Shown here: piece after piece, positions 14,814 through 63,206 of the stretch | How positions within the stretch are numbered: the first letter of the stretch is position 1 | How the letters are laid out: each line of letters begins with the position of its first letter | From: Selaginella tamariscina | Lineage: Eukaryota > Streptophyta > Lycopodiopsida > Selaginellales > Selaginellaceae | Assembly: GCA_003024785.1 (NCBI GenBank) | Contig: PUQB01000057.1 | Location: 596,127-660,126 of the forward strand | Direction: 5' to 3' | Length of the DNA: 64,000 bases | Notes under the pieces: generated by a model | What the model saw: only the letters and a program-made list of their open reading frames with translations | The model's database searches: none | What the model was told of the DNA's origin: nothing | Made by a program: the position numbers and the translations under genes

Positions 14814-14853
<40 letters not shown>

Positions 14854-20234: not shown

Positions 20235-20468
20235 GCAAATGATCAAGAAATGTTTAACTAATTACATTAATAAGCAAATATCATTACATATTTACAGCAT
20301 GATTATAAATATATTTTAATTAAGAAAGTACATACAATTGACAAAGTTAAAATTTACAAAAATGCCACGTCCTGTACATTTATTTCCTAGTCAGCAGCCC
20401 ACGTAATACAAGGCTGCCACAAAGAATGGCTGCACGCTATATACACGCAATATTTACAAATATATATG

Positions 20469-21640: not shown

Positions 21641-21681
<41 letters not shown>

Positions 21682-41059: not shown

Positions 41060-41251
41060 CTTGAAAGTTCACAAAAGGGTTCTAGAGTTGTCATCTGCAA
41101 GTCACGTTTGTGACACTAGGTGTAACACACGGTACAACATTGAGGGACACCCTTTAGGGTTGTGTCATGGATTTAACACCGAGGGGTTGGATATTTTAAT
41201 AAGCATGCTTGCTTGTGCTTGCATCATAATGCTAAACTTTGGGCATTTGCT
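41060..41251 (+). mobile_element. LTR fragment of the LARD family
   Basis: GGTTCTAGAGTTG, the CACGTTTGTGACACT block and TGTGCTTGCA appear in the order of the complement of 38,490-38,730. It is a piece of the same LTR in the opposite orientation, cut off at the junction with the transposon fragment that follows. Confidence 0.6.
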
Positions 41252-43671
41252 CAAAGAAGATTAAATTAACAAATATTTGCAGGTGACAAATGATGATATA
41301 TTTGTCCAATGGGTAAACTAATTTAAAAGATCTAGGCAAGAATCTATTGCATGTCAACGCGAGAAAGAAGAATATTGCCATAACGCCTTCTCTTATGGCA
41401 ATCCTTTAGCAGTGGAAAACCAAGTTGAACTTGATAAAGGAGGACGCTACAAATCATGATAAGCCTTACAAATGTTTATTGTCAAATTCGGAGACTTTAT
41501 AGGGTAACATCATTGACTATAGAAAACCATTTCAAATGTTTGTGATAGATTGGTAGGTGTCAAAAATTCCTTCTTTATAAAAGGTGCTAGAAGATTTCGT
41601 CAAGAAGCTTAGTTGTGCAAGCATGTACAAAGAAGGTATTTATTATTTAATTCTTACACACTTACCTAATACCTTTGTCTTTATGTATTTATTTCTTGAT
41701 TTTTGCTCATGTCACTGATACTTTGCCTTCATCTTCGCCAAGAAGAACAAACATGCTGGACAATGATGCATCACCCAAGTATATTGATACAGTTATTCAC
41801 TTGGTTGTTAAGAATGCGCCAAATAATTTTAAATTTCTAAATGACTGGTCATGCATTTGTTTTCGCTCCAACAGGCCTGAACCCTCATCCGATATATTGA
41901 TAGCTGAGAGGGATGTATTCGGCAATGTACATTATCTAGCAATTACAAGTTAAGTTGCATGCAGCATCGTCAACTTAATCAGGGGTCCTCACAGTGATGC
42001 ATGGGTTTTTGACTACTGCACTAAGGATTCTATCTTGAAGGAGTGTTAACTTCAGGATACATGTGTGTTTGCTATTGGAAAGGATAAGAACTTGAACAAA
42101 TGGATAGAGAGGTTCTTAACTGACTACCCTAACAAACCCATATAGAAGTATTTGGGAAAGTTCCCTCTCGAGAAGTGCAACAGCTTTGAAGAGAAATACG
42201 ATTCAATATTGGAGTTTAAAGACGATCTTGAACTAGATATCACACCAGAAGTTACCTCAAGGAGCATAGAACATTTAATTACTCCACTGAACATGGAAAC
42301 ACAATAGAAAAAACATAAGATGTTGAATGATCTTCCAAGTGGCTAAAACCTTCTTCGCCTAGCCAGAAGGTAATAGTGAAAATAAATTGTTAATGAATTA
42401 TTAAAGTAACAAATAGTTGTAAATGAGTATAACATAAGGCACTTTTGTATATTTTGTGTATATTTGTACATAAAATAAATTCTCAAGAACTAATGAAGCT
42501 TTTAATTCAAACATGGGTCACACATTAACAAAGTAAATAATATACCTTGGTAATTATAAGGCTAGCTAATAATCATTTTACAAATGTAATAAGGCGATTG
42601 GTTACTTAGATATTATAAGCATGTGGTCGACTATTGAGAGATTGTTGTTCGAGAATTAGAAGGGCATGTTATCCCAAGTACAAAATTACAACACCCTTTT
42701 TGGCTTAAAATAAGGTGGTGAGAGGAGATTGAAATGATATAAATGAGCACAAACGACATAAAAGCTAGTAATGATGTGGAAGTGCAAACCCCACACTTTG
42801 TTAAACAAAAAAACCAGAAACCTAAATCATACTTTGGCTACTACAAGAATCTTTAAAAATTAATTATCGTCCTCATTACTTCAGGTATGTCATATAACCA
42901 ACTTATTTGGATGGATCAATTATCAATATATATGAAATCATCATAAAAAATAGTATAGTGAAGGTTGCATGGTTCAAATGCAAAAAAGACAACATGAGAA
43001 GAAAAGTGAAAGGTATAATAAATACCTAGACAAAACATGATCTTCTAATCATAAAGACCCAACATGTTTTGTAAATGTTAAATCCATTCAATATAGGTGA
43101 TGTTAAGAAGCGTTGATAAAGTCACATTAACAAAACTATAAAAGAATGAATGTCTTTTGAAGCTTAAAGTAATTACAAAATATAATATATTTAATATTCA
43201 TAATTATAATAAATTGTTTAATAATAATACCAAATTGTTTACTTAACTATATAAATTTATAAAAAGATATGGAAAATTGATTTTGTATATATATATATTA
43301 TTACTAGTACCAATTTTTAATTAATGTTATATTTAAATATTAATATTTAATAACAACATAAATATTTATATAATGTACCTCTCATGCTCTTTAATAAATT
43401 TTATATTAGGCCCATATAATCTTAAATATAATATATTATATAACTTAATTCTTTCTACTTTTATAATGTTATGAATTTTTGATTCACAAATGCTATAATT
43501 TATTAAGGGTCAATTATAAAAATAGAATGTTATAAAGAATATTCTGTCTTTAAACATATATTATTTTAAAGAATATACCTTTAATATTAAAAATTGCTAA
43601 TTAAATCACTAAAATTATTAATTATATAGAAATGGGACTATAAACATGCCCATTTTTAGTTACAACATGCA
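41252..43671 (+). mobile_element. Rearranged fragment of the 13.8-kb transposon (copy B)
   Basis: 41,252 to about 42,592 matches the complement of about 51,255-49,905 (the methyltransferase-like gene and the spacer after it). It includes VFDYCT, the same motif as in the full copy. At about 42,592 it jumps to sequence matching 61,102-62,157 (the end of the transposase gene and the right terminal repeat). It ends TGCA followed by TA at 43,672, exactly like the full element. The order differs from the full copy, where the two parts lie about 11 kb apart and on opposite strands. Coding frames are broken, so it is a non-autonomous derivative. The left end is lost in LTR sequence. Confidence 0.8.
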
Positions 43672-44695
43672 TATATATAGAACCTTACAACATGTTTCAT
43701 TAATAAAAAATAATAATTAAAATGAAACAAATTTAATATAAGAGACAAAGGAACAAATGACTCCGAATTTAATAAATTCAAGATATAGTAATAAATTTGA
43801 TTAATAAATAAAATATAAATACATTATATCTATATATATTGAAGGAGATATGCATACATGCATCATTATCATGAGATAAAACTAGGAGATATACACTTGC
43901 TTGTGTGTGAGAGAGATAGAAATATAAAGAATTCTTGACATAGCCTATAATGCAGCATATTCCTTAGCACACATGGCATATGTATCACACATGCCAACAC
44001 AATAGCTTAAAATGAATATACTAGAATCATTTATGCACGTTGTAACTAAAATGGACATGTCTATAGTCCCATTTCTTAATAATTAGCAATTATAGTTATT
44101 TAATTAGCATTTTTTAATATTAAAGGAATATTCTTTAGAATAATATATGTTTAAAGAAAGAATATTTTTTAGAATATATGTTTAAAGACAGAATATTTTT
44201 ATAACATTTTATTTTTATAATTGACCCTTTAATAAATTATAACATTTGTGAATAAAAAATTCATAATATTATAAAAATAGAAGGTATTAAGTTATATAAT
44301 ATATTATATTTAAGATTGTATGAGCCTAATATAAAATTTATTAAAGAGCATTAGAGGTACATTATATAAATATTTATGTTGTTATTAAATATTATTATTT
44401 AAATATAACATTAATTAAAAATTTGTACTAGTAATAATATATATATACAAAATCCTATATAGTCAATTTTCCATATCTTTTTATAAATTTATATAGTTAA
44501 GTAAACAATTTGGTACTATTATTAAACAATTTATTATAATTATGAATATTAAATATACTATATTTTTATAATTTTGTAATTGCTTTAAGTTTTAGAAAAC
44601 ATACATTCTCTTATAGTTTTGTTAATCATGATTTTATCGACATTCACCAATATCAAAATGGATTTAACATTTATAAAACATGTTGGGTCTAAGTT
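43010..44695. repeat. ~650-bp inverted repeat formed by two transposon ends
   Basis: The right end of copy B (about 43,010-43,671) and the start of copy C (44,034 to about 44,695) are inverted copies of each other, 362 bases apart. Both derive from the right terminal region of the transposon. As RNA or single-stranded DNA the pair could fold into a long stem. Confidence 0.75.
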
Positions 44696-45965
44696 TTGTT
44701 ATTTATGTTGTTATTAAATATTAATTAACAAAACTTTCTAAGCATACCTATGAGAAGCTGATAAAAAGATTGGCATTTTTAGCTAAGCCAAATCTCACAA
44801 CCAAGCAATACCATAAGTTATCGTCAGAATGTAAAGTTGCCGACACTAACCACTACAACAACAAAATATGGGAGAAGTTCAAACACACATGATTCATGTG
44901 AGAAACTCTTGGCCAATCACAAAGAGCTACTACAGGAAGAGAACAAAGTGCAGAATACTGGGTAAGTAAATTGTTTTCATAGGATTTATCTCGCCAATAT
45001 ATCAATATGTCTCTTTTTTAATTTGTAAAGAGCCAAAGAAATTATAGCAATTGATTTTGCCCAGGTTGATTTCTTGCCTTAAGGACAAGGTCTTCGCCAA
45101 ATGGGTGGGAATTATGGAATCATGCATGAAAGGAACACTAAAGAAGAAGCAGACAAGTGAAGGGAGCCTTTGGAAAAGTCTACAAAAAAAACCTAATAAG
45201 ACTCCCAAGGCTAAGTCTGTTCAAGTTGTAAAGGATGTAAACAATAACTTCAAGCTCACATGGTTGAAGCCTTTGAAAGGAACAACGGTGAAGGAGATGA
45301 ATGTGTTAGCTAATTTGGTGGCTAATAACAAATTACAGATTAACAACAATAGCCACACCTCTCCTTTTCATCTCAAATAATAGAGCTGAAGACGATTAGG
45401 CACTTCAAGGAGTGGTTGGGAATATATTGTCATAAACTGGGTTGGACCTTGGCTTCAACATATGAAGAGGTCAACAAATATCTATATGTGACAAACGATG
45501 ATATACTTGTCCAATGGGTGAACTAATCCGAAGATCTTGGCAAGAATCTATTGCATGCCAATGCTAAAAAGGAGAACATTGCAATGACACCTTCTCTTAT
45601 GGTAGTCCTTCAGCAGCGGAGAATGAGTTGAACCTTATAAAGAAGAATGCTATGAATCATGACAAGCCTTAAGATGTTTGTTGTCGGATTCATAGACTTT
45701 ATGGGGTAGCATCATTGCCTGCAAGAACTCGTTTTAAATGTTTGTGATGGATTGGCATGTGTCAAAAATCCTTCTTCAAATAAGGCACTAGAAGATTTAG
45801 TGGAGAAGCATTGCGGTGCAAGCATGTATAGAAAAGGTATTTATTATTAAAATTTGGCACACTTAGCTGATACCTACGTTTCAGGTATTTATTTCTTTTT
45901 ATTTTTGCTCATGTCACCCCGGTACCTTCGCCTTCGTCTTGTCAAGAAGAACAAACATTATTAAA
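44034..45965 (+). mobile_element. Rearranged fragment of the 13.8-kb transposon (copy C)
   Basis: Begins with TA then TGCACGTTGTAACTAAA, the terminal repeat in inward orientation. 44,034 to about 44,690 is the complement of the right end of the full element. After about 44,735 it matches the complement of about 51,985-50,690, the middle of the ParB/methyltransferase-like gene, including frames like FKLTWLKPLKGTT (near 45,245). It stops abruptly at about 45,965. No second terminal repeat was found. Confidence 0.75.
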
Positions 45966-48355
45966 CTGAATTTTATATGAAACGATGTTGATTCCAGGTG
46001 TATTAATAAGGTTATTCACTTTGGAATCTATGCTTCTGTGGCTTCCCCCCGACCTCCAGTTGGTCACTTGGTATGCCGTGGCAATTTCTTGGACCTCCTA
46101 TTAGAGGTCTACTTCTCCTATAATGAATACGTCCAATAGGTAGGCCAGGGATGGCTGCTTCTTCGTCATCATCTAGTCCCCCACCCTAGTCCGAGAGGTG
46201 GTACTCGTGGGTCAAAACTCCGATGATGGTGCCCAGACTTGTTCTGCAGAGACAGATATCAGTCCTCCTTTAGTGGGGAACTGGACCCGCTGGTGCTCCT
46301 AGTCATGCTACACCTTCGTGCCCCAAAGCCAAGGGCAATCGAGGAGTAAGTCAAACCCCCCTTTTGTGTGCATGTCGAGGATGACAATGTTTACCATTGA
46401 TTTATACCCTCCTCATGATGCCCTTGGGCGCCACCTTGGTTTGATTTGCCATCCGTATGAGTACGGGTGAGGGCTCCGGAGGTGGCATCCTCAGCTTTTG
46501 GTGGAGTTCTGTTGACATGATGTTCACACCTGATCTTGATATCTTTCTCATTTTTAACAGCATTCTCTCCTATCTAATCAATAACTTTTATAAGAGCTTC
46601 ATGCTTATTAGTAATGTTTATTTAATCTACATGGGCAACCTCTCTCTTGGCTTGCCTATTATCTCTTTCTTTTCTAGAGATGAGTTTCATTTCATGATCA
46701 AACTTCACTCAAATCCCTTCTTTAATTGAGAATTCCAATGAGATCTAACACAATAATGGTGAAATTTCTCTGTGGTCTCCAATTTGTCTCACAGAATTTC
46801 TTTCGAGAAACAATGTCAAGATAGCCTTCTTGAGTACAAGATATATCCCTACACTTATAGTTCTATTCATATTCAAACCTCTTAGCCAAACTCCAAAGTT
46901 AAAGGCACAAATTTACTCTGACCGCATGCCATGTTAGATTTCTTATTGATAACTCACACACATTATTACATATATAAAGGATTTCATATAACATGCCTCA
47001 CATTACTAAGATGAATACATGAGAAGCAAGCTTGGAGATTCCCTACCTACTTCCATTCATGCCTTTTCACTTCCATATTCCTTTTTGCCACTGTCATAAC
47101 CATCATAACCATTTACCATTCTATCACTATAAGATTTTCTTTTATTAAGGACTTCCTCTCCTAAAGATTTTTACCATTATCAAGAATTTTTTACTTCGTA
47201 GGTTTTCCAATGGCTTGCCTACCTCTTATTTCTCCATGGTAGGCTATCTTATGAATGCATTTCTTATATGCCCTTTCTGACCTTCAACAATATTTGATCA
47301 AAACAATTATTGAAACACGGCAATGGTGAATTGTAATGGTAGGGATTTATGCAGCAGCAATATATGGAGTTGTGTGTTCCTTACCATAAAGGTATGTTCT
47401 CCATGTTAGCAATCACACACATGTATATACATAAACACACTTATTTTGGAAGTATTCACAATTCTTGCAGAACTAGCATGATGATAATGGTTGCAATTGA
47501 TTCATTTGCCGTTGTGCAATATCGTTGCTTAATCTAGGTGAGAAGGTCAATGCACTAGTTAACAGACTAAATATTTTTTAAAGATTAAAGTCCTTTTCTT
47601 AAACCCTAACAAAAAGGCAAGTATATTTTGTAAAATCGTGACCTTAAAATATATACCACTATAAACCTCAAGACTTAAGCTAAAAAAATATTTTAAGTGA
47701 AAAACTTGTAAACTATTGTTTTAGCAAGACAATATGAACAATGTACATGTGTCGATGAACCTTATAACAGAGATTTTTGTTGGTTAAATTTTTTACCAAA
47801 TCTAAAGATTGTTGAAGAGTGAATAGAGGTTTGCAAACACAGACCATGCAATGGTACTATTTCTTGTTAAGTCTATAATTTGCCTTTTCATTTTATTATG
47901 ATTAGGCATGTGGGTGCTAAACAATGTTAGGTATATAGCACAATGGAATGTTTGCATTAAAAATGCTAGATAATTTGAGATATGGTGTACAAAGAGTTTC
48001 AAGTTCTTCATGGAACTCAACTTTGAGAGAAAGTGATTATAAATGACATTTTCTAACCATTTTTACTTATTTTCTTTTGTTTTATAAAATATTTGGAATA
48101 ACTTGGTTTTTCATGTTTGTTTCTTTATTTTATTTTTTTTTAAGTTAATGTGGTAGATAAGCATATTTATTGTTGAGGGTGAAGTGAAGTTTATCCTATA
48201 GGAAGTTGGGAAGATAAGAATACCTTACATATCAACCTTCTCAAAGAGGGTGTAAGAAACATTATCAACCTTCTCCAAAAAGGATGATGTCCAATTTCAG
48301 ATAAACATACCTACAAAAGGCAATCAAATGTCATTTTTTCAGGTGGTGTTGCACA
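45966..48355. other. Gene-free stretch
   Basis: 46,020-46,460 is GC-richer and may be old retroelement sequence; the rest is AT-rich. No domain recognised in any frame. It ends at the TA preceding the left terminal repeat of the transposon. Confidence 0.4.
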
Positions 48356-48357
48356 TA

Positions 48358-48383
48358 TGCACGTTGTAACTAAAGTGGGCATG
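48358..48383 (+). repeat. Left terminal inverted repeat
   Basis: Starts TGCACGTTGTAACTAAA and ends TGGGCATG; it differs from the complement of the right repeat at four positions. Preceded by TA (48,356-48,357). Confidence 0.85.
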
Positions 48384-48894
48384 ATACGTGAAAATGGGAA
48401 TATAAAATAAATTACTAATTAATACTTAAGTTTTAATTATTAATTAATCATTTAATTAATATGTAATTAAGCCTTAAATATTAATTAATTAATTAATTAA
48501 TCCTTCAATAACCTTACTTAGTAAGGAATATTCCTAAAATATCTTAGAATATTCATATTATTCTAAAAATAGTTTACAATAATGAAGAAATACTATCAAA
48601 CATAATTACAAATGAAATCATTTCTTATCAACATGTTTTTTTTTAAATATTTACTTTCTTCCTAACCATAAGAGAAATTTCTTCATTTTGTCTAAATCAT
48701 CACTCTCCGGATTAATCAAATCATTTTGGTCAATATCTTGATGTTGTTGCCACCACCTTAACACTCTCACGAATGCAATTGGGAGTTGCCATCCTTGTTA
48801 ATACATAAGATGTAATAAGAAGGTCTGCATAAAGGCTCATCTAAAAATGACGTTCCTTAAGAATAATATTATAAAGCGCCCGGTTGCTATCCTT

Positions 48895-49910
48895 CATTTT
48901 ATAAAATTCAAAATCACGAGAAAGAAAAGCTTCAGGAAATGTTGATACGGTGGATACTGCTCACAAAAATTTTCGAGATTCTTCTTTCTGAGGCACGTAT
49001 CCAAGTAGTTCACTAGCTCATCCATGATATCGTATCAGAATATGGATCGAAAGTGATTGGATGAATACAAGCAATGTTTTGGTTGAGCATAGCCTTCTGA
49101 GGAGAGTCGTCTACACTAAGATATGTGCATTCTTCATTATCCTTAAGCGACTGATCTCCCCATGAGTCCCAATTATTCTTTCATTCTTGAAGAAGTATGG
49201 CTTGCTTTCCTTTCTTATATTGTGAAATTCGAGAGGTTTATAACACATTCGCTGGTCAAAAATCCAATCTTTACGAATCACCTCTTCTGCAACACTACAA
49301 TGTTTCTTAAGCAAATTCAACAGCGGTGTTAAGTTATGAATCTGCATGCATGACCAAATCCCCACAAGCGCACCCATCTCCTTAAGCTTTTGAAAGAGAC
49401 GATCCAACCCTGGACGAAAAATAATATCATATCGAAATTTACCATGACAAGGAATGAAATCTCCTTGTTTGATTTTTTTTTCCTATCCTCGGGCCTTTGT
49501 CGATGAAGCAGAACACCATTGACATCCAACAACACAATATGGCCATGAGTAACATGAGATAGCGTTGCCTCTTGAATACTTTGCAAATCACTTGTTTGCT
49601 CCCTTTCACATTTATCCGTTGCCACTATCTCGTTGCCTATCCCTTCATCATTTAATTGTACATCATCCTTACAAGATTCAGATATTGCATGCGCTGAAGA
49701 AATTGATTTCGGAACTGAAGCCAATAAAAATGATGATGAAAAAACTGAAGTGGCCCCCATGGTAACGATGTTTTGAGCTGCATTATTATCCATTTCCTGC
49801 ATGAACTCTGTCATTCTGACATGTGGCACAAGAAATTGTCGCCAAACCCCTCTCTTACCTCATGCCAATGCTGAAAATCCATGTTCTCAATTGTTTCATT
49901 ACATCTGCAA
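48895..49910 (-). CDS. FCP1/HAD-like phosphatase inside the transposon
   Basis: A haloacid-dehalogenase fold protein of the FCP1/NIF type; members dephosphorylate proteins such as the RNA polymerase II tail. Seen in order: a variable, acidic N-terminal part (MTEFMQEMDNNAAQN), motif I HIVLLDVNGVLLHR (D-x-N-G-V-L, the plant variant of DxDxT), RPGLDRLFQKLKEMG with GIWSCM (motif II region), KPLEF and ESKPYFFKNERIIG, then HILV followed out of frame by DDSPQKAMLNQN (motif IV acid pair), and a helical tail NYLDTCLRKKNLENFCEQY. At least three frame changes: in the N-terminal part, before DDSPQ and before the tail. It lies downstream of the ParB/methyltransferase gene on the same strand, about 260 bases away. 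It could be a captured host gene or a true element gene. Confidence 0.7.
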
Positions 49911-50172
49911 AATGATAATTAGCTGACCTTAAAATTATCAAGGTATATTATTTACCTTGTTAATGTGTGACCCATGTTTGAACTAAAAGCTTCATTAATC
50001 CTTGAGAATTTATTTTCTGTACAAATATAAACGAAATATACAAAAATGCCTTATGTTACACTCATTTACAACTATTCGTCACTCTAAGAATTCATTAACA
50101 ATTCTTCTTCGCTATTACCTTCTGAGTGAGGCGAAGAAGGTCTAAGCCGCTTGTGAGATGGTTCAAGATCTT

Positions 50173-53154
50173 CTATCTTCTATTGATGTTTCCATGGGTA
50201 ATGGAGTGTGAATGTTCTGTACTCCTCGAGATAACTTCCGGTCTAATATCTGATTGAAGTTCGTCCTCAGACTCCGACATTGAACCAGATTCGTCTTCAG
50301 AGCTATCGCACTTATCTGGAGGGAACTTTCTCAAATACTCCTTTATGGATTCGTTGGGGTAGTCAGTTGAGAACCTATCTATCCACTTGTTCAGGTCCTC
50401 AACCATGGTCTTATCCTTTTCAACGGCAAATACACATGTATGCCGAAGGTAACACTCCTTCAAGACGGACCCCCTAGTGCAGTAGTCAAAAACCCACGCA
50501 TCACTGTGAGGACCCCTGATCAAGTTGACGATGCTCCGTGCCGCTTGACTTGTGATGTTTGGATAACGTACATTGCCGAATACGTCACTCTCAGCTATCG
50601 GTGTATCGGATGGAGGTTCAGGGCCGTTGGAGTGCAAACAGATGCCTGGCCAGTCATTTGGAAGTTTGAACATTGTTGGCGCAACCTGAACAACCGAATC
50701 AATTTCATCAGCATCATTCATATAAAATCCTGTCCAACGATGTTTATTCCTCTTGGCAAAGGAGAAGGCAAAGGTATCGGTGACATGAGCAAGAATCAAG
50801 AAATAAATACCTGAAAACGTAGATATCAGTCAAGAGTGCAAGTATGAATTCAATAATAAATACCTTCTTTGTACATGCTTGCACGGCTAAGTTTCTCCAC
50901 CAAATCCTCTAGTGTCCTGTCTGTCGAAGGATTTTTTGACACCCGCCGATCCATCACGAACAATTGAAACGGTTTCCTACAAGCAGTGATGGTACCCCAT
51001 AAAGTCTCCGAATCCAACAACAAACATCTGTAGGGCTTGTCGTGATTCGTAGCATCCTCCTTTATAAGGTTCAACTCGGTTCTCCGCTGCTGAAGGACTG
51101 CCATAAGAGAAGGCGTCATCGCAATGTTCTCCTTTTGGCGTTGGCGTGCAATAGATTCTTGCCCAGATCTTCCGATTGATTCACCCATTCGACAAGCATA
51201 TCATCATTTGTCACATGCAAATATTTGCTGACCTCTTCGTATGTTGAAGCCGAAATCCAACCCAGTTTGTGGCAGTGTATTCCCAACCACTCCTTGAAGT
51301 GCCTGACCGTCTTCAACTCCATTGCCTTGAGATGAAAAGGAGAGGTGGGCTGCTGTTGTTAATCTGTAATTTGCCATCAATCACCAAATCAGCCAAGACT
51401 TCCATCTCCTCCATCGTTGTTCCATTTAAAGGCTTCAACCATGTGAGCTTGAAATCGTTGTCTACATCCTTTATAGATTGAACAGACTTAGCCTTCGGCG
51501 TCTTACTGGGTTTCTTTGCAGTTTCTTCTGCTCACTTTTTGCTTCTTCTTCAGTGTTCCTTTTGCAAAGGATTCCATAATCCCCAACCATTTCGCAAAGA
51601 TCCTATCCTCGGGACAAGAAATCAACATCATCAAAAAGGATGTTTCCTTCCCGCCCACCTGGGCAAAATCAACTGCTACAATTTCTTCAACTCTCTGAAA
51701 AAAAGACAGATTAATATACCGGCGAGATAAATCCCGCCCAAACAATTTGCTTACCCGGTAGTCCGCAGATTGTGTTTCCCTGCGGTAGCTCTTTGTGGTC
51801 GCTGAAGAGATTCCCACACGGCTCGCGTGTGTTTGAACTTCTCCCATATTTTGCTGTTGTAGTGGTTGGTGTCTGCAGCGTCCCATTCCGCCGATAACTT
51901 ATGGTACTGCTCGATTGTGAGATTCGGCTTCGCTAAAAACGCCGATCTTTTCGTCAGCTTCTCACGGGTATGCTCGGAAAGTTTTGTTGCCATCGTTCCT
52001 TTTTGTGTTCGTCGAGAAGTCGTTGGGCTGCCGTTATTGTGTGCTGGCCACTAATGATGTAGTACTTAACTGATTTTCTATTCTCCGTCTGAACCTTCCT
52101 CATTTGTTCCGGTGTTGTGATCCACACTTTGTCAGCGCCTTTGTTTCTTCGTAGTATGCGCACAAAACAGCATTATGTGGAACGGTGTAAGAATTGTCGT
52201 CCTTCATCTTCTCCATGAGCTCAGCTACACGTTCCTGATTGAGTGGCCTGTAATTGAAGTTTGGGTTGACGCTGCAATACTTAACCCTACACTCGTAAAT
52301 CCTATCATCCAACATCATTTCCTTGTGGCTTATTGCAGCATGGGATGCCACAGGTGCAGCTGACAAAACGACTAATGATTTTCTTTACGATCCGAATCAA
52401 CATGTGTGATCCCCGATTGATGCTGTTCTAATGTTCTCGGCACACTCTTCCAGCTCCCGAAATTTCTAAGCAAATTGAACGTGATCTGTAAAGAACCTGA
52501 GACCAAGCCACCCTCTCAATCTCCTTTATGATGTCGCTGTGTTCTTCTTCAATGTGAAGAGGGACGATTGCTCCACTTGTGGATTTTCTGTATTGTGAAG
52601 CAATATCTCCTGAGAATACACCTACTCGATGAGTCTGAAGATCTTCGAAGTAGACATCCAGTTGGATCCCCTCCATAGATGGGCTTTCGTTGAGTTGAAG
52701 AAGAACTCACAAGGTCAACATCATTAGTGAACACGTGAACGTCATTATCCACAAGTCGACAAAACCACCCGAAATTAATGTTGTAACTGGCGACCTCTGG
52801 ATCCGAGAACGTGACATTGGATGGAACAAGGCATATGTGTCGAGCATCGTTCAATCTGGGTTCACAGCATGCTTTCGGATGCTTGACTAGCACACCCACT
52901 TTCCATTGTTTTGCTTGTCCATGCGATGTGACAGAGGTTAGTTTGACAGCAACCATGGTTGTTCCAATGCGCTTCCCGTTTAGTTTGAAATATGGCCAAG
53001 TTGATTCCAGAATCCCCCTGCCCATCTCTTCTCCTGCTCTCGTCTTAATGTCACCTCAATTCCACATCTGAATACAAAAATGATTATTCAAGCACATATC
53101 CGAGTATAACAGATTTTATTTTAATTCTTACCCAGAATTTGACGACGACTCCAT
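50173..53154 (-). CDS. ParB/sulfiredoxin-like plus DNA methyltransferase-like protein
   Basis: One long gene in pieces. N-terminal block (53,154-52,550): IKQGDRVISMESSSNSG, an intron (about 53,140-53,070), then MGRGILESTWPYFKLNGKRI and a chromatin-reader-like region of unknown family. Middle block (about 52,370-51,960): NPNFNYRPLNQERVAELM and YYIISGQHTITAAQ, the two halves of a ParB/Srx-like domain (the second corresponds to the G-x-H-R/T..A motif). Then KLSAEWDAADTNHYN and FKLTWLKPLNGTTMEEM, no known domain. C-terminal block: SDAWVFDYCTRGSVLKECYL with CVFAVEKDKTMVEDL (about 50,500-50,400), like the SAM-binding motif I (D-x-C/F-x-G-x-G and acidic end) at the C-terminus of beta-type adenine methyltransferases. 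No clear DPPY/W is seen; LLLDSETLWG sits where it might be. The tail is acidic. Several one-base shifts. A second intron spans about 51,754-51,697. Start uncertain because an acceptor (TTTTGCAG) precedes the first block. Confidence 0.6.
51720..51739 (-). repeat. Single palindrome unit inside an intron
   Basis: GGCGAGATAAATCCCGCC within the second intron of the ParB/methyltransferase-like gene is a variant of the array unit, nearly equal to the one at about 54,138. A trace survives at the matching place in copy C (GATTTATCTCGCC, about 44,981-44,993). Confidence 0.65.
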
Positions 53155-53296
53155 ACTAATGACTCGATCTCCTTGTTTAATTAAATCGTCCTTCTGCAAA
53201 ATAATACACTATGAATACAAATCATATAAAAACGCACACACACTTGTATAAACCCGAATATACAAAAATAATACACAGAGAGAAGTGGACGGAATT

Positions 53297-53382
53297 AACT
53301 GTCCAAAGCTCACATTTGTGCTAGTGCAAAAAAAGATAACATTTCGTTTTAGAACCACCACAAATGTGAGCTCTGGACAGTT
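53297..53382. repeat. 24-bp inverted repeat with 38-base loop
   Basis: Arms 53,297-53,320 and 53,359-53,382 are complementary apart from one position; the core is GCTCACATTTGTG / CACAAATGTGAGC. It lies between the first exon of the ParB/methyltransferase gene and the left palindrome array. It could be an operator or an RNA hairpin. Confidence 0.75.
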
Positions 53383-53464
53383 TTACATAGATTCCTAGCT
53401 TTTACTCGAAATATTATGATATAGCAACTTATATATACTAATACACATATATATTCACATGGAA

Positions 53465-54340
53465 GGTGCGGCGGGATTAATCTCGCCACCTTTTTGGAGG
53501 CCTTGAACGGGAGTGCAGGATTAATCCTGCCACCCTTCTTGATCTCAGAGAGAACTTGGCAGGATTTATTTGCACACCCCTTCAGTGACTCCTAAAAAGG
53601 CGGCGGGATTAATCTCGCCCACCATGTAAGGGATGGTGAAATAAATTCGCCACCCTTCCCAATCCCTCCATTGGTATGTTGTAAACCTTCTACGTCTAGA
53701 CAGAAAACGTTTGGGATTGGTCCGACTCACCAATGAAGAAAAAGGGAAGGGTGGTGGATTCATCCTCCAATAGGCATTGAAGGCTCGGCGGGATTAATCC
53801 CGCTGCCCAGGCCCTTCACTCGAGCCCTAGGCGGCGGGATTAATCCCCGGACGCCAATGCCCTGCGCAGAATCGGGCGGGATTAATCCCGCTACAGGCCC
53901 TTCAGGCAAGCCTTTGGCGGCGGGATAATCCCGCCCGATTCCATGCAGGACATGCGTACGCGGGATTAATCCCGCCGCCTAGGCCCTTCACTCGGGCCCT
54001 AGGCGGCGGGATTAATCCGCCGGATGCCAATGCCCTTGCACAAAATCAGGCGGGATTAATCCCGCTGCCTAGGCCCTTCAGGCAGGCCTTTGGCGGCGGG
54101 ATTAATCCGCCGCCTAGGCCCTTCAAATAGGTCAATGGTGGCGAGATAAATCCCGCCAGATTTCGCGCAAGGCATCCATAGGCGGGGGATTAATCCCGCC
54201 GCTATTCGGTTAGCCTCAATCTCGCCGCTCATGAGGCTAACCAATAACCTGCCTGAAATGGCGGTGGAATTAATCCCGTTGCTCATGAGGCTAACCGAAT
54301 AGCCTGCCTAAAGGGCGGCGGGATTAATCCCGCCGCTACA
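53465..54340. repeat. Left array of GGCGGGATTAATCCCGCC palindromes
   Basis: About 17 units spaced roughly 40-45 bases, most of the form GGCGGGATTAATCCCGCC with decayed variants. Spacers between units are themselves repetitive (blocks such as CCTAGGCCCTTCA and GGCAGGCCTTTGG). The sequence is far more GC-rich than its surroundings. It lies 5' of the minus-strand ParB/methyltransferase gene. Units near the outer edge (53.46-53.75 kb) are the most diverged. Confidence 0.92.
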
Positions 54341-54602
54341 CACACACACACACACATATATTAATATATGTATATGTGTGTGTAGGAGAGTGCGTGTGTG
54401 TGCCAGAGATAGACAAATCAGATAAAATTATAAATACACACACACATATGTATTGTATATGTATATCGTATGTGTGGTGTTAAATTATACAGATACACAC
54501 ACACACACACATATATATACAGGAGAGTGTGTGTGTGTGCGAGAGATACAATTAAAAATCAATAAAATTATACAGACACACACACACACACATATATATA
54601 TG

Positions 54603-54634
<32 letters not shown>

Positions 54635-55080
54635 GTATAGGAGTGTGCGTGTGTGTGCGAAAATAGATAATAAATATAATATACAGATACTGGTACACAT
54701 AATATATGTATGTATATTATATGTATATAGGTATATATGTGTGTGTGTGTGTGTGTATCGTGAGTATGCGTGTGTGAGCGAAACAAATAAAATCATACAG
54801 ATAAACAGGAGTGTGCGTGCGTGTGCAAGAGATAAATTAATAAATTAATAAAATTATACAGATACACAAACATAACACACACAGATATATATTATATATA
54901 TATTATTATATATTATATATATCTGTGTGTGTATATGTATACGAGTGTGCGTGTGTGTGCGAGAGATAGAGATCTAATAATATTATTTAAGATTACACAC
55001 ACATATAAATATATATGTGAATAAAAATAAATAAATAAAACTCAAGAGTGCGTGTGAGAGAGAGAGAGATCTCACCTGTG
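54341..55080. repeat. Microsatellite block
   Basis: Alternating (CA)n/(TG)n and (TA)n runs with a higher-order repeat of about 80-120 bases: 'GAGTGTGCGTGTGTGTGCGAGAGATA..AATAAAATTATACAGATACACACA' recurs about six times. Frames through it encode only Thr/His/Tyr/Val/Cys strings and are not genes. Confidence 0.85.
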
Positions 55081-55439
55081 TGTGAGAGAGAGATGGAGAT
55101 TTCACAGCCGCCGCCTTACTTCTTAAAACCTTAAATATACCAAACCCTAAAGGAATAGAATATATATTAACCCTAATTGAATATTCCTTTCTAAGAATAT
55201 ACTTAAACCCTAAAAAGAATAACTATAGATTCGCCTTAAACGAATATTCTTTCATTATTATTATCAGCGTGTGCGTGTGCGTGGGTGTATCACATACACT
55301 TCAAGAATAAAAATCATGCAGGGGTTTAACATGTGTGTGTCCATGAGAGTGTTAAAGTTTCACGTGCAGCGATACATATACACACATGTATTATACACAT
55401 AGTACATACATATTAGTACATATTAATATTAAAGAGACA

Positions 55440-55960
55440 AAGTACATAATCATGCATGGTGTGTATGTATGAGAAAGAGTGACAATACATGTTATGGATC
55501 CTGCATGGTGTGTATGTTTGAGAAAAGAGAAACAGTACATATTAATATGGATCATGCATGGTGTGTATGTATGAGAAAAGAGAAGAGTGTTAACAAATTA
55601 AATTCATACACATTGCATGTATTAGTACACACATATACATACACACATGTATACACACAGACATACATACATATTACATGTGTAAATTCAATGTGTTACA
55701 TAGGGTTTAGGGTTTAGGGTTAGGATGGATCATGCATGGTGTTTATGTATGAGAGGAGTGAGTGTTATACATAGATATACATTATACATATTACATAATT
55801 TGTAACATCAGTACATATTATGGATCATGCATGGTGTGTATGTATGAGAGAAGAGATAGGCTACATATTATGGATCATGATCATGCATGGTGTATATGTA
55901 TGAGAGAGGGATTATGCATGGTGACACTGTGTATCTATGAGAGAAGAGATAAAGTGTTAA
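55440..55960 (+). repeat. Tandem ATCATGCATGGTGTGTATGT units
   Basis: About eight irregular copies of ATGGATCATGCATGGTGTGT followed by ATGTATGAGA and AGAG-rich ends, mixed with longer repeats (ACACATTGCATG..ATATTACATGTG at 55,610-55,690 and again at 55,970-56,060). Confidence 0.8.
55701..55724 (+). repeat. Short telomere-like run
   Basis: Three consecutive units of the plant telomere repeat TTTAGGG, the last imperfect. Too short to mark a telomere; it supports a plant source. Confidence 0.7.
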
Positions 55961-56229
55961 CAAATGAAATCGTACACATTGCATATATTAATACACATAT
56001 ATACATACACACGTGTATACACACAAATATACATATATATTACATGTGTAAATTCAATGTGTTACATACACACAGACTGTACATATAGATCATAATGCGT
56101 TGAACATGATGTTTTTAATAAGAAGCAACATATAATTTCTCAAGTTTGGTTTAAGGCAATGTGCATGTGTGTGCATATGTGTCTCTATAAGTGCTTATAA
56201 TGCGTGTGCACGTGTATATATAAATTTAT

Positions 56230-56990
56230 GATTGTGTTTATATATGTGTGCAACAACATCGAATAATTAAGAAAATAATATTAATAACACACTATGAACA
56301 TATTTACATAATAATATATGATTTTATCTAATATATAGCCATATATAGTTTTAATATATATATTAATTTAATATTGATAATAAGGTTTAACACTGGAATA
56401 TTCTTGAAATAATAAGAATTTAATTGAGAAAAATCCATTAATATATACAAATGTAGATCAAGTACTGAAATAATTAACTAAATTAATTATGATAATCATG
56501 TTTAATATTGGAATATTCTTGGAATAATAAAAGAATATCCCATTAATATAAAGAAGATTAATTACTCAAGTATTTAAGAAAATGATATTAAATACACACT
56601 ATGAAATATTTTAAATTATACATATAATACATCATTTTATCTAATATATAGTCATATATAGTTTTATAATATATATTAATTTAATATTGATAATAAGGTT
56701 TAACATAGGATATTCTTGAATAATAACAAATTTAATTGAGAAAATCCCATTAATATATACAAATGTAGAATAATTACTAAAATATTTAAGAATAAGACTA
56801 ATTTACTTATGATAATCAGGTTTAATATTGAATATTCTTTGAATATTAAGAAAATAATAAAGAATATCCCGTTAATAGTAGGAAATGTAAATTAATTACT
56901 CGAGTAATTAAGAAAATAATAATTAATAAACAAACTATGAATATATTTTTAAATGATACATAATAATATATCAATTTATTTATTGTAATT
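56230..56990. repeat. AT-rich long-period repeats
   Basis: Blocks such as TAATAAGGTTTAACA..GGATATTCTTGAA, AATCCCATTAATATA and TTAATATTGATAA recur with a period of roughly 150-330 bases, three to four times. Confidence 0.7.
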
Positions 56991-56991
56991 A

Positions 56992-56995
<4 letters not shown>

Positions 56996-57041
<46 letters not shown>
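56996..57041. repeat. (TA)n microsatellite
   Basis: Uninterrupted TA run of about 46 bases in the AT-rich centre of the transposon. Confidence 0.9.
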
Positions 57042-57045
<4 letters not shown>

Positions 57046-57377
57046 AACTTAATAAATATATACTTGAATATTAAGAATGTAGAATAATTACAAAAATTTC
57101 GTAATATTAAACAGCTTGAAGCACTTAAATGACATTAAATACAATTTTAAAACACATTAAAATTGGAGAGTATATATGTCAGACTGTTTCAACTCATCTT
57201 AAAAATTTTTTTTTCTGTTATTTCAAAAATTTCAAATTTCTGACATAAGTATTGTCGGTCTAATATGTAAATTTAAAAATGCATTTAATTTCCCACTCAA
57301 ATTCAGATCTGGTTCTTTGTCCGGCAAGGGTTTCTTTATTTTTTTTATTTTTTCACTCTTCAGATTTTCTTTTTCTT

Positions 57378-57460
57378 CTTAGTGATCAGCTCAGAGCGAC
57401 ATTAAATTGGGTGCGCTATTGTTTATAGGAAAGCACGGCGCCTTCAGTGCTGTTTACAAG
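57378..57460 (+). other. Possible 5' exon of the transposase gene
   Basis: A GC-normal stretch in AT-rich DNA with CTTCTTAG before it and a strong donor (TTTACAAGTAAGTATT) at its end. A coding exon beginning at an acceptor (TTTATGTGCAG) lies at 58,574. If both sites are used, the right palindrome array is inside this gene's first intron. Confidence 0.4.
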
Positions 57461-57614
57461 TAAGTATTATAAACAAATTTAAATATATTTATAAAGATTC
57501 ACTCTCTTACATTCTCTCTTAAATTTTAGAATTTAGGATTTAGGAATGCATTAGGATTACAATATATTTGTTAGGGATTTATCCCGTTTAAATATACTTT
57601 AACTTAATATTCTC

Positions 57615-58430
57615 GGTTAGCCGGGGGCGATTAATCCGGCCATTTTTTTTTGCCTCTTTGAAGAGGTGGCGGGATTAATCCCGCCACCATCTCTTTATAG
57701 CTATGGCAGAATTAGTCCGGGCAATGCTTCTCCGCCTTTTAAAAAGAGCGCGATTAATCCCGCCGATAACTTCTCAACTGATAAAGAGTTACTTGAATTT
57801 ATTGAAAAGAGTTATCTACGGGATTAATCTTGCCAACCAGGGGTGGCGGGATTAATCTCGCCACCACTTCCTGTTTTAAATATTTGTGGGCAGGATTCAT
57901 CCGAATCTCTTTGAAATCATAGTTTCGGAGAGTTGTGGGGGGATTAATCCCCCCCGTCGTCAGAGTTGTGGCGGATTAATCCCGCCGCCTATTCTCCTCG
58001 TCAGTGTTGTGGGCGGATTAATCCCGCCCCTCTTCCTCGTCGGAGGATTTGCGGCGGGATTAATCCCGCCGACTTCTCCCGAGGAAGATCGGCGGGATTA
58101 ATCCCCCGGTACTTCCTCGTCGGAGGGAGTCCGCGGCGGATTAATCCCGCCACTCTCTCGAGAGGGAGCGGCGCGGATTAATCCCGCCGTTCCTCCGGAG
58201 GGAATCGCGCGGGATTAATCCCGCCGACTCTCTCGAGGGGTAGGTCACGGCGGGATTAATCCCGCCGACCTCTCGGGGAGAGTCGCGCGGGATTAATCCC
58301 GCCGACCTCCTCCGAAGGGTAGAGTCGCGCGGGATTAATCCCGCCGACTCTCCGAAGGGGTAGAGTCGCGGCGGGATTAATCCGCCATCGTTCCTCTCGA
58401 GGAGTTGTGGGCGGGATTAATCCCGCCCAT
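57615..58430. repeat. Right array of GGCGGGATTAATCCCGCC palindromes
   Basis: About 20 units spaced roughly 38-45 bases; most retain GGATTAATCCCGCC and many the full 18-base palindrome. Spacers are themselves inverted or direct repeats of CTCTCGAGGGAG / CTCCTCCGAAGGG type, different from those of the left array. It ends about 140 bases before the first transposase exon. Units nearer the gene are the least diverged. Confidence 0.92.
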
Positions 58431-58567
58431 CAGTTGTATTAATAAAGCATGAGATATTATCTTATACATAATTATGTATTATTGCACATGCATATTATTA
58501 AGCAACTGCAGTTATGATTTCTTAAAATATTGCATAAACAGATATCATAAATAACACAATTATTTAT

Positions 58568-61461
58568 GTGCAGGACAATATGTATAATACTGGAGATAAA
58601 GTATGTCTTCTTCGGAACAACGAGATAGTTGGCACTGGAACTGTGGAAGTTCGAGATGATAATGCATCATGTCACAATATTGCCCAAGGATCTTGTGTGT
58701 ACGTATGGGTGAACACCATTTTCAAGCATGTTGAGGTTCCGGAATGGAATTTGAGGAGGGTTCTCCTGTATTGTGGAATTTGGATGAAGTCAAGGCTGAC
58801 ACAGAATATACAGAGTCACAAACAAAGTAGCACGAGTTTTCCAGATGATGGCTTGCCTGCTGTGATGGATGAGGTGATTCTCTTTCTTCATGAGATTGAG
58901 GTTGGGAGGCATCATCACAGCTATAAATCCAATGGAAGCAGTGTCAGAAGAGAAACTAGGGTCCGACTTCGTGGGTGTAGTTGTGACAGAGGTTTCACCT
59001 AATGGCACTTTGCATCCTGGATCCCTCGTGAGGTGGCGAACATCTGAATTAAGACGGCAAGATGGTTCAACATATTCTGGGTTGGATTTCAATAATAACA
59101 ACCCGGAAGAACAACTCATATTTGAAGAGGTTCCTTGCATTGGTCCTATTGTAAGAAAAAGGCGATTCATGGGTTGCAGATCTTCCCCTGCAAGTTTCAG
59201 CAAGAGGGTGAAGATGGATCCTACATCTTCCGAAAGTGTTACGAGCATTTCCACGATTGACTGTGCAAGAAGAAGTGTTGTCAGATGGCAGACCGGAATG
59301 AAATTACCCAATGTAGACATGTCTTTCGTACGCTCACCCAAAAGCAAAGGCATGAGTTTGTATATGCTGCACTAACTGGGTGTATTGATGGAATGGCCTC
59401 GGACACAGGTTATCAGAGTACATCCATGGTATTTAATAAGGTGGCCATCTGCTTCAAAGCTTGGTACAGTATATACGGGATCCCAAAGACCACGTTCTAC
59501 CGTCGGAGGGATGAGTGGCTAGATGGAGCGCGAACCTCAGTACATGGGAACACTGCTTGGTCAAAACCCGCTCTCACATTATGGCAGCCATAGAGATACT
59601 CAAGGCTTTTGTGGAAGCAAATGCAGACAGGATGCCTCACAAATGCCGAACCACAAATGCAGGGGTCAGGGAAAATCTCAAGGTTTTGCCTTCAATCTAC
59701 ACTCAATTGAAGCTGTGTGAACATGTGAACAAGTGCCTCAGTTTGATGGGTGCAAGCAATCTGCACTGGTACCTTCAACAACATATGGAATACTCATTTT
59801 AAGGATGTGGAGATTGCAAAACACTCTAGCTTTTCCAAGTGTGACACTTGTACATCATTGAAGGCTGCAGAGGCTTGTGCAAAAACCTTGGTGGAGATCA
59901 CTGCCATTCAAAAGAAGATGGAGGCCCACATGATTGCACAACAAACTTGCCGGTCTCAGTACTATGCACACCGCATGCTTTCTGTGTCACATCAGAGTAC
60001 CTGTGCTTGATCCATGACAAGATGGATCATTCAAAGACCAGCATTCCAAAGCTCGTTGCAACACCAAAGTGCCTTGGAAATGTCATGAAACTTCCGATTT
60101 CATTGACAGTGTGCTAACACATGGACACGGTTGTGAGTCATATGGACACTTTTCACTTCCACATTGGTCTAGCGACTCCAATTTCACTATTGGGTCGTTG
60201 GCCATGTGTTTCAGAAACCTTGAAGCCCACTCACAGACAAGTCCTATCAGTGATCTCAAAGTGAAGAAACAACACCTTCAACCTTTACATAATGCTCTCA
60301 TGAACACGTCTGCACTTGAGGCTACTTGGGAATATGAGAGGCATTGTCAGCAGCCTGCACAAAAAACAGATGGCCCTGTTGAGAGTTCAGGTTCAGTGGA
60401 GGGATCTAGCTCAAATAGTGTACATGTGTCCTCAACATCAAATAAGCTTCCTCGTCATTTGCTTTTACAGATGGATAATTGTGCAGGCGAGAACAAAAAT
60501 AGGTAAATCATTTTACTTAAGGGTTTCTCAAGCTCATACTTACTTTTATTTTCTAGATATGTGCTAGCATACTTGTCAATGCTTGTTGCCAAAGGTGTGT
60601 TTGAAACAATCACGCTCAGTTTTTTATGGTTGGTCACACTCATGAAGATATTGATGCGTTCTTCAGCAAGGTCTCCAACTCTACAAAAAGGACAAGTGCA
60701 CTTACCTTACCGCATATGATGAATCTTTTTGAAAATTGCATCTCCAAAAAAAGTTGTGCTTTGCTTGTGACTGAGGTGCCAGACTTCAAAAAATTTCTCA
60801 AGGAGTATATAAAAGAGGGAGTGATTCTTTAGTTGGTCACCTTGTGCCGCTACAATTCTTTTTCTCCATACGAGATGGTATACCTATTATGCAGTACAAG
60901 TTACGGCCATCAGAGCAGGAGTGGTTACCGAAAGAGGGGTTAATGCTCTTCAAAAGTGGAGAGAATGGAAAGCCACTTCTCCCAGAAGGACAACCAGACC
61001 CTATTCCATTGAGTGCCCAGCTCAAGGAACAAGAGGTTATTATTGATGGCATCAAAAAATATGTGGCATGGGTTCAAAAATCGATGCCAAAGAATTCTGA
61101 TAAGGCAACTGGTTACTCAGAACTATATAAGCATGTGGTCGACTATTGGGAGACTGTTGTTCGAGAGTTGGAAGGGCCTACTGTCACAAGTACAGAATTG
61201 CAACACCCTTTTTGGCCTAAAACAAGGTGGCGAGAGGAGATTGAAATGACATCACTGAGCACAGACGACATAGAAGCCAGTAGTGATGTGGAAGTGCAAA
61301 CCCCACACTTTGTTGGACAAAGGAACCAAAAACCTAAAGCATACTTTGATTGCTGCCAGGATCTTCAAAAACTAATGATGGTTCTCATTACTCCAGATGC
61401 GTCATATAATCAGCCTATTTGGATGGGTCAAATTATCGACACACCTGAAGTAATCACATAA
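58568..61461 (+). CDS. Transposase-like protein, DUF7869-type
   Basis: Probable transposase with an RNase H-like catalytic core. N-terminal block NTGDKVCLLRNNEIVGTG (like the GD.V start of the minus-strand gene). Middle block: TLTQKQRHEFVYAAL and YGIPKTTFYRRRDEWLDG, a DNA-binding helix region. Then a zinc-like HSSFSKCDTCTS cluster, CRSQYYAHRM, CLIHDKMDHSKTSIPKL (first acid region), QMDNCAGENKNR followed after an intron (60,503-60,556, GT..AG, phase kept) by YVLAYLSMLVAKGVFETITL, and VGHTHEDIDAFFSKV (last acid region). The C-terminal block is charged, with ELQHPFWPKTRWREEIEM, and ends near 61,461. Order and spacing match DUF7869-type proteins. About six one-base frame changes lie along it. The first Met overlaps a splice acceptor, so the true start is either 58,580 or in an upstream exon. 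Confidence 0.75.
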
Positions 61462-62131
61462 AATACAAAAAAAGGCGACACGAGAAGGAGAGCGAAAGAT
61501 ATAATGGATGCCTAGAGAAAACATGGTCTCCCAATCAAAAAGACCCAGCATGTTTTATAAATGTTAAATCCATTCGATATGGGTGGATGTCAAGAAGCGT
61601 TGATAAAGTCACGATTAACAAAACTGCAAGGGAATGTATGTTTTCTGAAGCTTAAAGCAATTACAAAATTATAAAATATCATATATTTAATATTCATAAT
61701 TATTATAAACTCTTTAATAATAGTACCAAATTGTTTACTTAACTATATAAATTTAAAAAAGATATGGAAGATTGACTATATTATTATAGGATTTTATATA
61801 TATATATATTACTACTACAAATTTTTAATTAATAATGTTATATTTAAATATTAATATTTTAATAACAACATCAATATTTATATAATGTACCTCTTATGCT
61901 CTTCCTTAATTGTTATATTAGGCAATATATTATATAATTTAATACTTCTACTTTTATAATGTTATTAATTTTTGTTCAATGAATGCTATAATTTATTAAA
62001 GGGTGAATACAAAATAGAATATTCTAAAGAATATTCTTTTTCAAATATATATTCTAAAGAATATTCCTTTAATATTAGAAAATGCTAATTAAATAGCTAA
62101 AATTGCTAATTATTAAGAAATGGACTATAGC

Positions 62132-62157
62132 CATGCCCATTTTAGTTGTAACCTGCA
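62132..62157 (-). repeat. Right terminal inverted repeat
   Basis: On the minus strand TGCAGGTTACAACTAAAA then TGGGCATG. Followed on the plus strand by TA (62,158-62,159), as at the left end. Confidence 0.85.
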
Positions 62158-62159
62158 TA

Positions 62160-63206
62160 CATGAAGATGCTCTTGACAAAGACCTAGAGAGTGAGTCTTA
62201 TGTAATTTACTTGAGCTCAGATGTTTGTGCATGTGTTAGTGTGTGAGTGTGTCTGCATTTTGTGACTGTGTGTTTTCTTGTGTGGCTATCTGTGGGATAT
62301 AAGTTATGTTGTTTCGTAGGGAGAGGATGAGCGTACTAATAACAATAATAAAGTAAGGAGCACTCTCTCTCTTTCTCACACACACCCTGCATGTTTCATT
62401 GTGAAATTTGCTTTTCCTTTTTTATAGGAGACAGAGGTTGACAATGAAGAGGTCTGTAGTAAGCTTCGTTGACTTCTCAGGCCTAGTGAAAAGAGGTTAC
62501 TAATGATACACATGTAAGTGTTGATTTGGTTTTTAAATATTTGAAACTAATGTTGTATTTCATGTTATACAAGAGGAGTACAATGTTTTATAGCAAAGGA
62601 CAAGATTTTCCTACTATACACTATCTTGGGCAACATGCATGTTATTGGCCTTGGTGAAGTTCTACAAGTGTATCCTAAAGCCCTAGTACATGGTCAAAGA
62701 CTTACTACCTCGTGTGTTAGCATCATCATCGAGATTATTTTAAAGGTATACATATATGAATATCCTTATGGGTTATATACATATTACATAAGCACATTTG
62801 TGGTGTTCTTAGTATACATATTACATGATAAAAATGGGTGTTCGGACCTTTTCATTGAAAACTGACAGTCTAATAACTCAACCATACTTTCAAGTGCATG
62901 TTATATAAATATGTGAATCAACATCAAACTAATTGGGATCACTATATACCTTCTTCAATTTGTTTATATGTTTTTTGTTCATCCATTGGAGTCACCCCAT
63001 TTCATTTATGTATTGTTGTAACCATATGTTTCTCTTAGCTTTTTTTAGTCTCGTCTTAGCAAATGCACAAACGTGAAGTCAGTATTTAGATCAAAATCTT
63101 ATAGAGTTGTGCAAGGAGATGTTAACCAAGTTATATTATGCTCAAAAAGATAGAACAATGACACTATAATGCTTAACACTCTTCTATTCATGATCAGTGA
63201 TATATC
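62160..63206. other. No gene recognised
   Basis: A stretch at 62,436-62,515 has an acceptor-like TTTTTTATAG before it and a GTAAGT donor after it and could be a stray exon, but its translation matches nothing I know. Otherwise AT-rich. Confidence 0.3.

Follow-up and report, generated by a model that had tools for sequence, protein, structure and literature searches.

What a large DNA transposon of a land plant might do with genes other than its transposase gene is the question raised by a stretch of 64,000 nucleotides from Selaginella tamariscina (GenBank assembly GCA_003024785.1, contig PUQB01000057.1, positions 596,127 to 660,126), hereafter called the window. At 48357-62158 the window holds a DNA transposon with three genes between inverted ends, which an earlier note, made from the letters of the sequence, had read as a ParB-like methyltransferase, an FCP1-like phosphatase and a DUF7869-like transposase travelling as one eukaryotic element. 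The element is a DNA transposon of the cut-and-paste kind, large (about 15 kb), with three genes and present in many copies in its land-plant host. The explanation that we prefer, at a little less than even confidence, is a DUF7869 transposase accompanied by ParB-like and NIF-like accessory proteins that would regulate the element through its own palindrome arrays.

As presented in Table 1, the element ends in 27-bp terminal inverted repeats, left and right being identical at 23 of 27 bases. The earlier note had described inverted repeats with TA on both outer sides. The repeats were recovered, and a TA target duplication was ruled out: the flanks of the window element match over 4 bp (ACAT), and the TA at both outer edges consists of the last base of one unit and the first base of the next.

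Table 1. Features of the transposon and of its relatives in the window (window numbering).
Feature	Position	Strand	Remarks
Left target-site duplication ACAT	48353..48356	.	repeated at 62159-62162
Left terminal inverted repeat, 27 bp, ATGCACGTTGTAACTAAAGTGGGCATG	48357..48383	+	end comparison
NIF/FCP1-like phosphatase-like gene	48640..49859	-	single open frame (~403 codons) in good copies; frameshifts in window copy
ParB-like / methyltransferase-like gene	50173..53154	-	about 980 aa spliced by eye; frameshifted in window
Segment resembling class-beta methyltransferase motifs X and I (SIVNLIR..VFDYCTRGS..VEKD)	50370..50560	-	by eye; no profile match
ParB/Srx-like segment NYRPLNQERV ... YYIISGQHTITAAQRLL	52000..52320	-	weak to modest
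Palindrome array 1 (GGCGGGATTAATCCCGCC)	53518..54330	.	upstream of ParB-like gene
Palindrome array 2	57672..58423	.	upstream of transposase gene
DUF7869 transposase gene (putative)	58580..61655	+	about 1020 aa in good copies; DNCAGENKN and GHTHEDID motifs
Right terminal inverted repeat, 27 bp, ATGCAGGTTACAACTAAAATGGGCATG	62132..62158	-	end comparison
Right target-site duplication ACAT	62159..62162	.	matches left 4 bp
Copy B, decayed rearranged relative	41268..43676	+	end of ParB-like gene fused to end of transposase gene and right terminus
Copy C, decayed rearranged relative	44027..45992	+	inverted right terminus fused to part of ParB-like gene

Nine other loci were fetched from the list of DUF7869 matches in the assembly of the window (300,702,823 bases in 1391 contigs), with the composite C722 excluded from the count; C852, among eight loci of that list, was not extended. 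Six other copies (C1182, C225, C649, C869, C982 and C660) aligned end to end with the window element, and the gene order common to the full copies is the NIF/FCP1-like gene (minus strand), the ParB-like gene (minus strand), a spacer and the DUF7869 transposase gene (plus strand). The first part of the transposase gene is deleted in C1182 (12.6 kb), and the five others measure 14.7-15.1 kb each, including 2602 N in C982 and 1186 N in C660. The right end of C225 is damaged, and small deletions were observed in some ends (the left ends of C649 and C869). Two shorter elements retain both ends and the NIF gene: C585 (9.7 kb), from which the ParB-like gene is gone, and C633 (3.4 kb), without the ParB-like gene and much of the transposase. 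A copy with the same ends and neither minus-strand gene, which the earlier note had named as evidence against its proposal, was not found among the nine elements compared. Seven of these nine carry a 4-bp target duplication, C225 being read past its damaged end: ACAT (window), TATG (C1182), ATAA (C225), ATAT (C649), AAGG (C869), CTCT (C585) and AATT (C633), with no shared target sequence as judged by eye. No target duplication was observed at the flanks of C982 and C660, both of which adjoin pieces of other elements, and C660b, whose right edge is not an element end, was left out of this count. At 86517-109999 of C660, several element copies are nested or recombined, one left end lying inside the ParB-like gene of another copy.

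The linkage of the three genes was also observed across the genome. At all eight sampled NIF places, spread through the list of 107, the ParB-like gene lies upstream and the left end downstream; the left 27-bp end was without mismatch in seven of these copies and had a 1-base insertion in the eighth. Among the matches listed, the ParB-like gene is followed on its own strand, 506-510 bp downstream, by the NIF gene in 8/8 pairs (145 places of the ParB-like C-terminal part, five second pieces of already-listed copies having been dropped from 150, against 107 NIF places). The same arrangement was found for all 16 pairs of NIF and the ParB-like N-terminal part within 8 kb, 15 of them at 2.69-2.90 kb (150 against 107 places; 0.85 pairs expected by chance), and the transposase is divergent from the N-terminal part at 9.0-9.6 kb in 11 of the 13 pairs within 15 kb (150 against 150 places; 2.2 pairs expected by chance). 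The six end-to-end copies, the duplications and the eight sampled NIF loci bear out the proposal that the three genes travel together as one eukaryotic element between the same ends. A further NIF-like gene copy lies on the same contig at 69810-70425 (window numbering), past the right end of the window, and probably belongs to another element.

Genome matches number at least 300 for DUF7869, at least 256 for the ParB-like C-terminal part, at least 150 for its N-terminal part (all 96-100% identical) and at least 107 for the NIF gene (all 91-100% identical); 148 of the 150 scored N-terminal matches and 84 of the 107 scored NIF matches are stop-free. We estimated the ratio of nonsynonymous to synonymous substitution rates (dN/dS), pooled over pairs of copies with those under 60% coverage left out, all values being pushed up by dead copies. 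The pooled ratio was 0.29 for the N-terminal and ParB parts of the ParB-like gene, 0.27 for its middle and 0.52 for its C-terminal part, 0.47 for NIF, and 0.37 and 0.58 for exons 1 and 2 of the transposase. Between C649-type and window-type copies, a grouping made for this analysis, we obtained 0.25-0.31 for the N-terminal and ParB parts, 0.15-0.22 for the middle, 0.29-0.67 for the C-terminal part, 0.30-0.56 for NIF, 0.28 for transposase exon 1 and 0.35 for exon 2. Single comparisons reached 0.77-1.03 for transposase exon 2 and, in one case, 1.24 for NIF, with few changes or decayed copies involved. The N-terminal and middle parts of the ParB-like gene are the most constrained, and for most gene parts the differences between the subfamilies are tilted towards silent changes.

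All three genes are frameshifted in the window copy, and better copies exist elsewhere in the genome. The plus-strand gene, with its likely ATG at 58580 and one intron placed by eye near 60503-60556, matched DUF7869 (PF25273) with an E-value of 9.8e-11 (42 bits) on one open piece of the window copy and of 5.3e-47 (160.3 bits against a cut-off of 26) on a protein whose reading combines C649 and a piece from C869. DUF7869 was the sole family match obtained, with no match to the PDB, and we infer that this protein is the putative transposase of the element. The NIF family (PF03031) matched the first minus-strand gene with E 3.4e-11 (43.5 bits) when the window copy was read through, 1.2e-5 on one open piece, and 4.3e-12 (46.4 bits against a cut-off of 21.8) on copy C869; matches of this gene to the PDB were at chance level only. 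The HAD/FCP1-like gene and the DNCAGENKN...GHTHEDID gene of the earlier note are both in the sequence, each with its family match. Phosphatases of the NIF/FCP1/SCP type have a DxDx[TV] motif with both aspartates, the second being the general acid-base. Motif I of the NIF-like protein reads DVNGV in 20 of the 21 frames having the anchor, a departure from the two-aspartate pattern. An active phosphatase is therefore doubtful, since asparagine replaces the second catalytic aspartate; membership of the family stands, and the protein may be inactive as a canonical phosphatase, though most scored copies stay open.

The second minus-strand gene has small introns inferred from GT..AG borders and a likely ATG at 53154. 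The segments on which the earlier note had relied (NYRPLNQERV, IISGQHTITAAQ and VFDYCTRGS..VEKD) are all in the sequence, and by eye the order RPL, helix, strand, YYIISGQHTITAAQ resembles that of ParB. An HHalign comparison with 14 ParB domains (13 phage loci and Spo0J) gave an E-value of 0.0032, above all 40 column shuffles, with the expected motif (GERR/GQHR-type) aligned, and the same motif was aligned with three phage ParB-methyltransferases. PHROGs likewise returned a ParB-like family at the top, with an E-value of 0.1. Several results weigh against the assignment. Pfam ParB_N (PF02195) was unmatched in the gene and, at E 0.001, in the whole genome. In the comparison with the three phage ParB-methyltransferases, 1 of 40 shuffles for the segment and 4 of 40 for the whole protein scored as well. 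With nine paralogues and a wrong-frame tail, the ParB match fell to E 0.025, one of 30 shuffles being higher; this tail, FPSIPVRS, had been considered as the last ParB strand and was dropped, as it lies in another frame than the open 478-aa exon of C1365, and it is absent from the run with E 0.0032.

Other searches with the ParB-like protein were negative. Nothing exceeded the Pfam cut-off in the gene, and no DNA-binding helix-turn-helix was recognised. A 640-aa reading had no relatives at E 0.001 in 5.8 billion proteins (8000 candidates sharing most words scored), and residues 250-950 of the spliced reading had none at E 10 among 5651 candidates. The reading had no match in the PDB; for the ParB segment, tblastn against phages gave one chance match (E 8) and NCBIfam chance matches only, and neither matched the C-terminal part. 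The ParB/Srx-like claim of the earlier note has the HHalign result on its side and the missing Pfam match and the shuffles of the other runs against it, and the resemblance of the minus-strand protein to ParB, judged from its sequence, may be called weak to modest.

The methyltransferase claim found no support in the searches. By eye, SIVNLIRGPHSDAWVFDYCTRGSVLKECYLRHTCVFAVEKD looks like motifs X and I of class-beta enzymes. No search matched a methyltransferase (Pfam, PDB, PHROGs, NCBIfam, phage tblastn), HHalign with the three phage enzymes as templates showed no sign of a methyltransferase, 24 of 40 shuffles scoring at least as well, and the catalytic [DNS]PP[YFW] was present in none of the three frames in any of 10 copies; both of these last results also count against the preferred explanation. 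LDSETLWG stands at the expected DPPY place in eight of the 10 copies, C1365 being disrupted there and C225 being without the anchor. An eroded or S-adenosylmethionine (SAM)-binding C-terminal domain is possible, because algal ParB-methyltransferase proteins exist.

We observed an 18-bp palindrome, GGCGGGATTAATCCCGCC, at 25-46 sites (≤3 mismatches) in each of the seven full copies. In the window its two arrays lie 0.4-1.2 kb upstream of the likely ParB-like ATG and 0.2-0.9 kb upstream of the likely transposase ATG; both are present in six of the seven full copies, array 2 of C1182 being lost with its deletion, and neither is near the element ends. All exact copies of the 10-bp core GGATTAATCC in the window, 24 in number, lie within the element. 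Exact cores vary from 15 to 34 between the seven full copies, the arrays expanding and shrinking. For C869, C982, C225, C1182, C585 and C633, as many cores were counted in the whole fetched locus as in the element alone (none for C633), and C660, C649 and C722 have additional cores near other element pieces. When repeated 16-mers were ranked with simple repeats filtered, GCGGGATTAATCCCGC took first place, alone or shared, in five of six copies and missed it by one place in C649. Conservation was 0.84-1.0 over the 18 positions against 0.31-0.72 just outside in the six other copies, and 0.70-1.0 against 0.33-0.52 in the window copy; picking sites at ≤3 mismatches in the inner 16 positions favours those 16 and not the outer two. 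Neighbouring sites are mostly 44-46 bp apart, roughly four turns of the helix (37-46 bp in the window copy). From their sequence, the arrays have the anatomy of an operator or a candidate docking array. The spacer between them (54330-57660) also contains AC/AT microsatellites and longer tandem units, partly common to other copies.

In the preferred explanation, the DUF7869 protein would recognise the 27-bp ends and generate the 4-bp target duplications, and the ParB-like and NIF-like proteins would be accessory functions that the element keeps. The ParB-like protein, whose C-terminus may be methyltransferase-like or only SAM-binding, would dock on the palindrome arrays of the element and set the expression or chromatin state of the two divergent genes. 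The NIF-like protein, probably a non-canonical or inactive FCP1/SCP relative, would have the transcription machinery as its target or serve as a binding partner. We infer transposase function, docking and regulation alike from sequence, and the arrays could instead be sites for the transposase. In a partition-like variant, which we regard as unlikely, the ParB-like protein would load on the phased 18-bp palindrome arrays as on a parS analogue and mark or insulate the element against host silencing, with the NIF-like protein on the transcription machinery. That the transposase itself binds the arrays, the ParB-like and NIF-like genes doing something else, seems to us somewhat unlikely. In its favour, TnpA of Spm/En binds repeated sites close to its own promoter, the transposase gene has one array directly upstream of it, and the ParB-like protein has no recognised helix-turn-helix. 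Against it, the ParB-like gene has the other array upstream, and the element ends have no array close by; C633, with both ends, a 4-bp duplication and no palindrome, adds little weight, as its deletion may postdate insertion.

The arrays might also be a mere satellite, or an inserted hairpin element, spread within the spacer, in line with the microsatellites and other tandem repeats there and with the variable array size. We give this little credence, as the conservation drops just outside the 18 positions, sites in copies other than that of the window mostly follow one another at 44-46 bp, and in six of seven full copies both genes have an array upstream. It is likewise improbable that the element picked up the ParB-like and NIF-like genes a single time as passengers without a role and multiplied them by jumping. 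The frameshifts of the window copy and of the ParB-like gene in most full copies read, the absence of one catalytic aspartate from the NIF-like protein, and C585, which has both ends and a duplication without a ParB-like gene (a loss that may postdate insertion), would fit passengers. So would the pooled dN/dS of 0.47 for NIF, which, with those of the C-terminal part (0.52) and transposase exon 2 (0.58) and several single comparisons at 0.8-1.0 or above, also speaks against the preferred explanation. On the other side stand the inter-subfamily dN/dS of 0.15-0.31 in the N-terminal, ParB and middle parts, the prevalence of stop-free matches, for which recent amplification could also account, and the recurrence of a ParB-methyltransferase gene in algal elements, as far as the accessible text on these describes it. 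Three unrelated host genes between chance inverted repeats have next to no probability: the same ends and genes were seen in seven copies, each at another site and most flanked by a 4-bp duplication of its own, and this grouping was ruled out by the end-to-end copies, the duplications and the eight sampled NIF loci.

Outside the element, the window contains additional element ends at 43646 and 44032, which are those of copies B and C (Table 1). These two relatives of the element, about 80% alike, have right ends face to face ~350 bp apart and give the window inverted repeats. A direct repeat of 1.45 kb, 87% alike, lies at 32741-34191 and 38084-39532, with related pieces near 40977-41263. Host genes recognised by eye at 11866-24391 comprise a PIN-like auxin carrier, an RWP-RK factor, a class-19 chitinase and a TBC-domain protein.

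This element bears on the open question of how large DNA transposons of plants persist despite silencing by the host: it has hundreds of gene copies and retains two accessory genes, one or both of which are clearly constrained. The candidate binding site, present 25-46 times per full copy, provides a short DNA probe and two directly testable proteins. ParB-type accessory proteins of transposons would extend from algae to a land plant.

The closest precedent is Sola1-1_Ec32 of Ectocarpus, a giant DNA transposon of 21.5 kb with a gene opposite the transposase for a 1104-aa ParB-like and DNA methyltransferase protein; according to its accessible text, the paper refers, for similar proteins, to a book chapter of 2011 and a red-algal genome of 2025, giving green and red algal precedents (PMC12477816). 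In the Selaginella element, too, a gene read as ParB-like runs opposite to that of the transposase. In contrast to this brown-algal element, with proteins compared by description only, it has a land-plant host and an added NIF/FCP1-like gene, its methyltransferase motifs are weak or lost, and it has promoter-side palindrome arrays, which the accessible text does not mention for Sola1-1_Ec32 (PMC12477816). The Sola superfamily is described in the part of its source at hand as having 4-bp target duplications, variable inverted ends and some members >15 kb, and as known in a moss (PMC10741241); the 4-bp duplication was seen in seven of our nine elements (not in C982 and C660), and the Selaginella element may be a Sola1 relative. 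A further mark of that superfamily is a Sola1-type transposase with a DDD catalytic triad. Phage proteins that fuse ParB with a methyltransferase (in Streptococcus phage Javan32 and Terrisporobacter phage TPDSL_ph1) have the same ParB-like then methyltransferase-like order and one shared motif region, whereas the Selaginella protein has no DPPY, TRGS instead of GSG and several hundred extra residues, and whole-protein similarity is not significant. As far as the accessible texts go, mobile elements with DNA-modification genes are also represented by retrotransposons with methyltransferases (PMC5890265), which differ in being DIRS and LINE elements with other enzyme families, and by fungal DNA transposons with TET/JBP genes (PMC12730594), which differ in enzyme and hosts. 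Our literature search, with most subscription papers outside it, found no paper naming DUF7869, no named family with the full three-gene set and, in the accessible texts, no NIF gene or such arrays in comparable elements. The earlier note had known of no named family with this set; a ParB-methyltransferase gene opposite a Sola1 transposase is, however, already published (PMC12477816, accessible text). Overall, as far as these texts describe it, the kind of element is already known from algae, and what is new is its land-plant host, the added phosphatase-like gene and the palindrome arrays.

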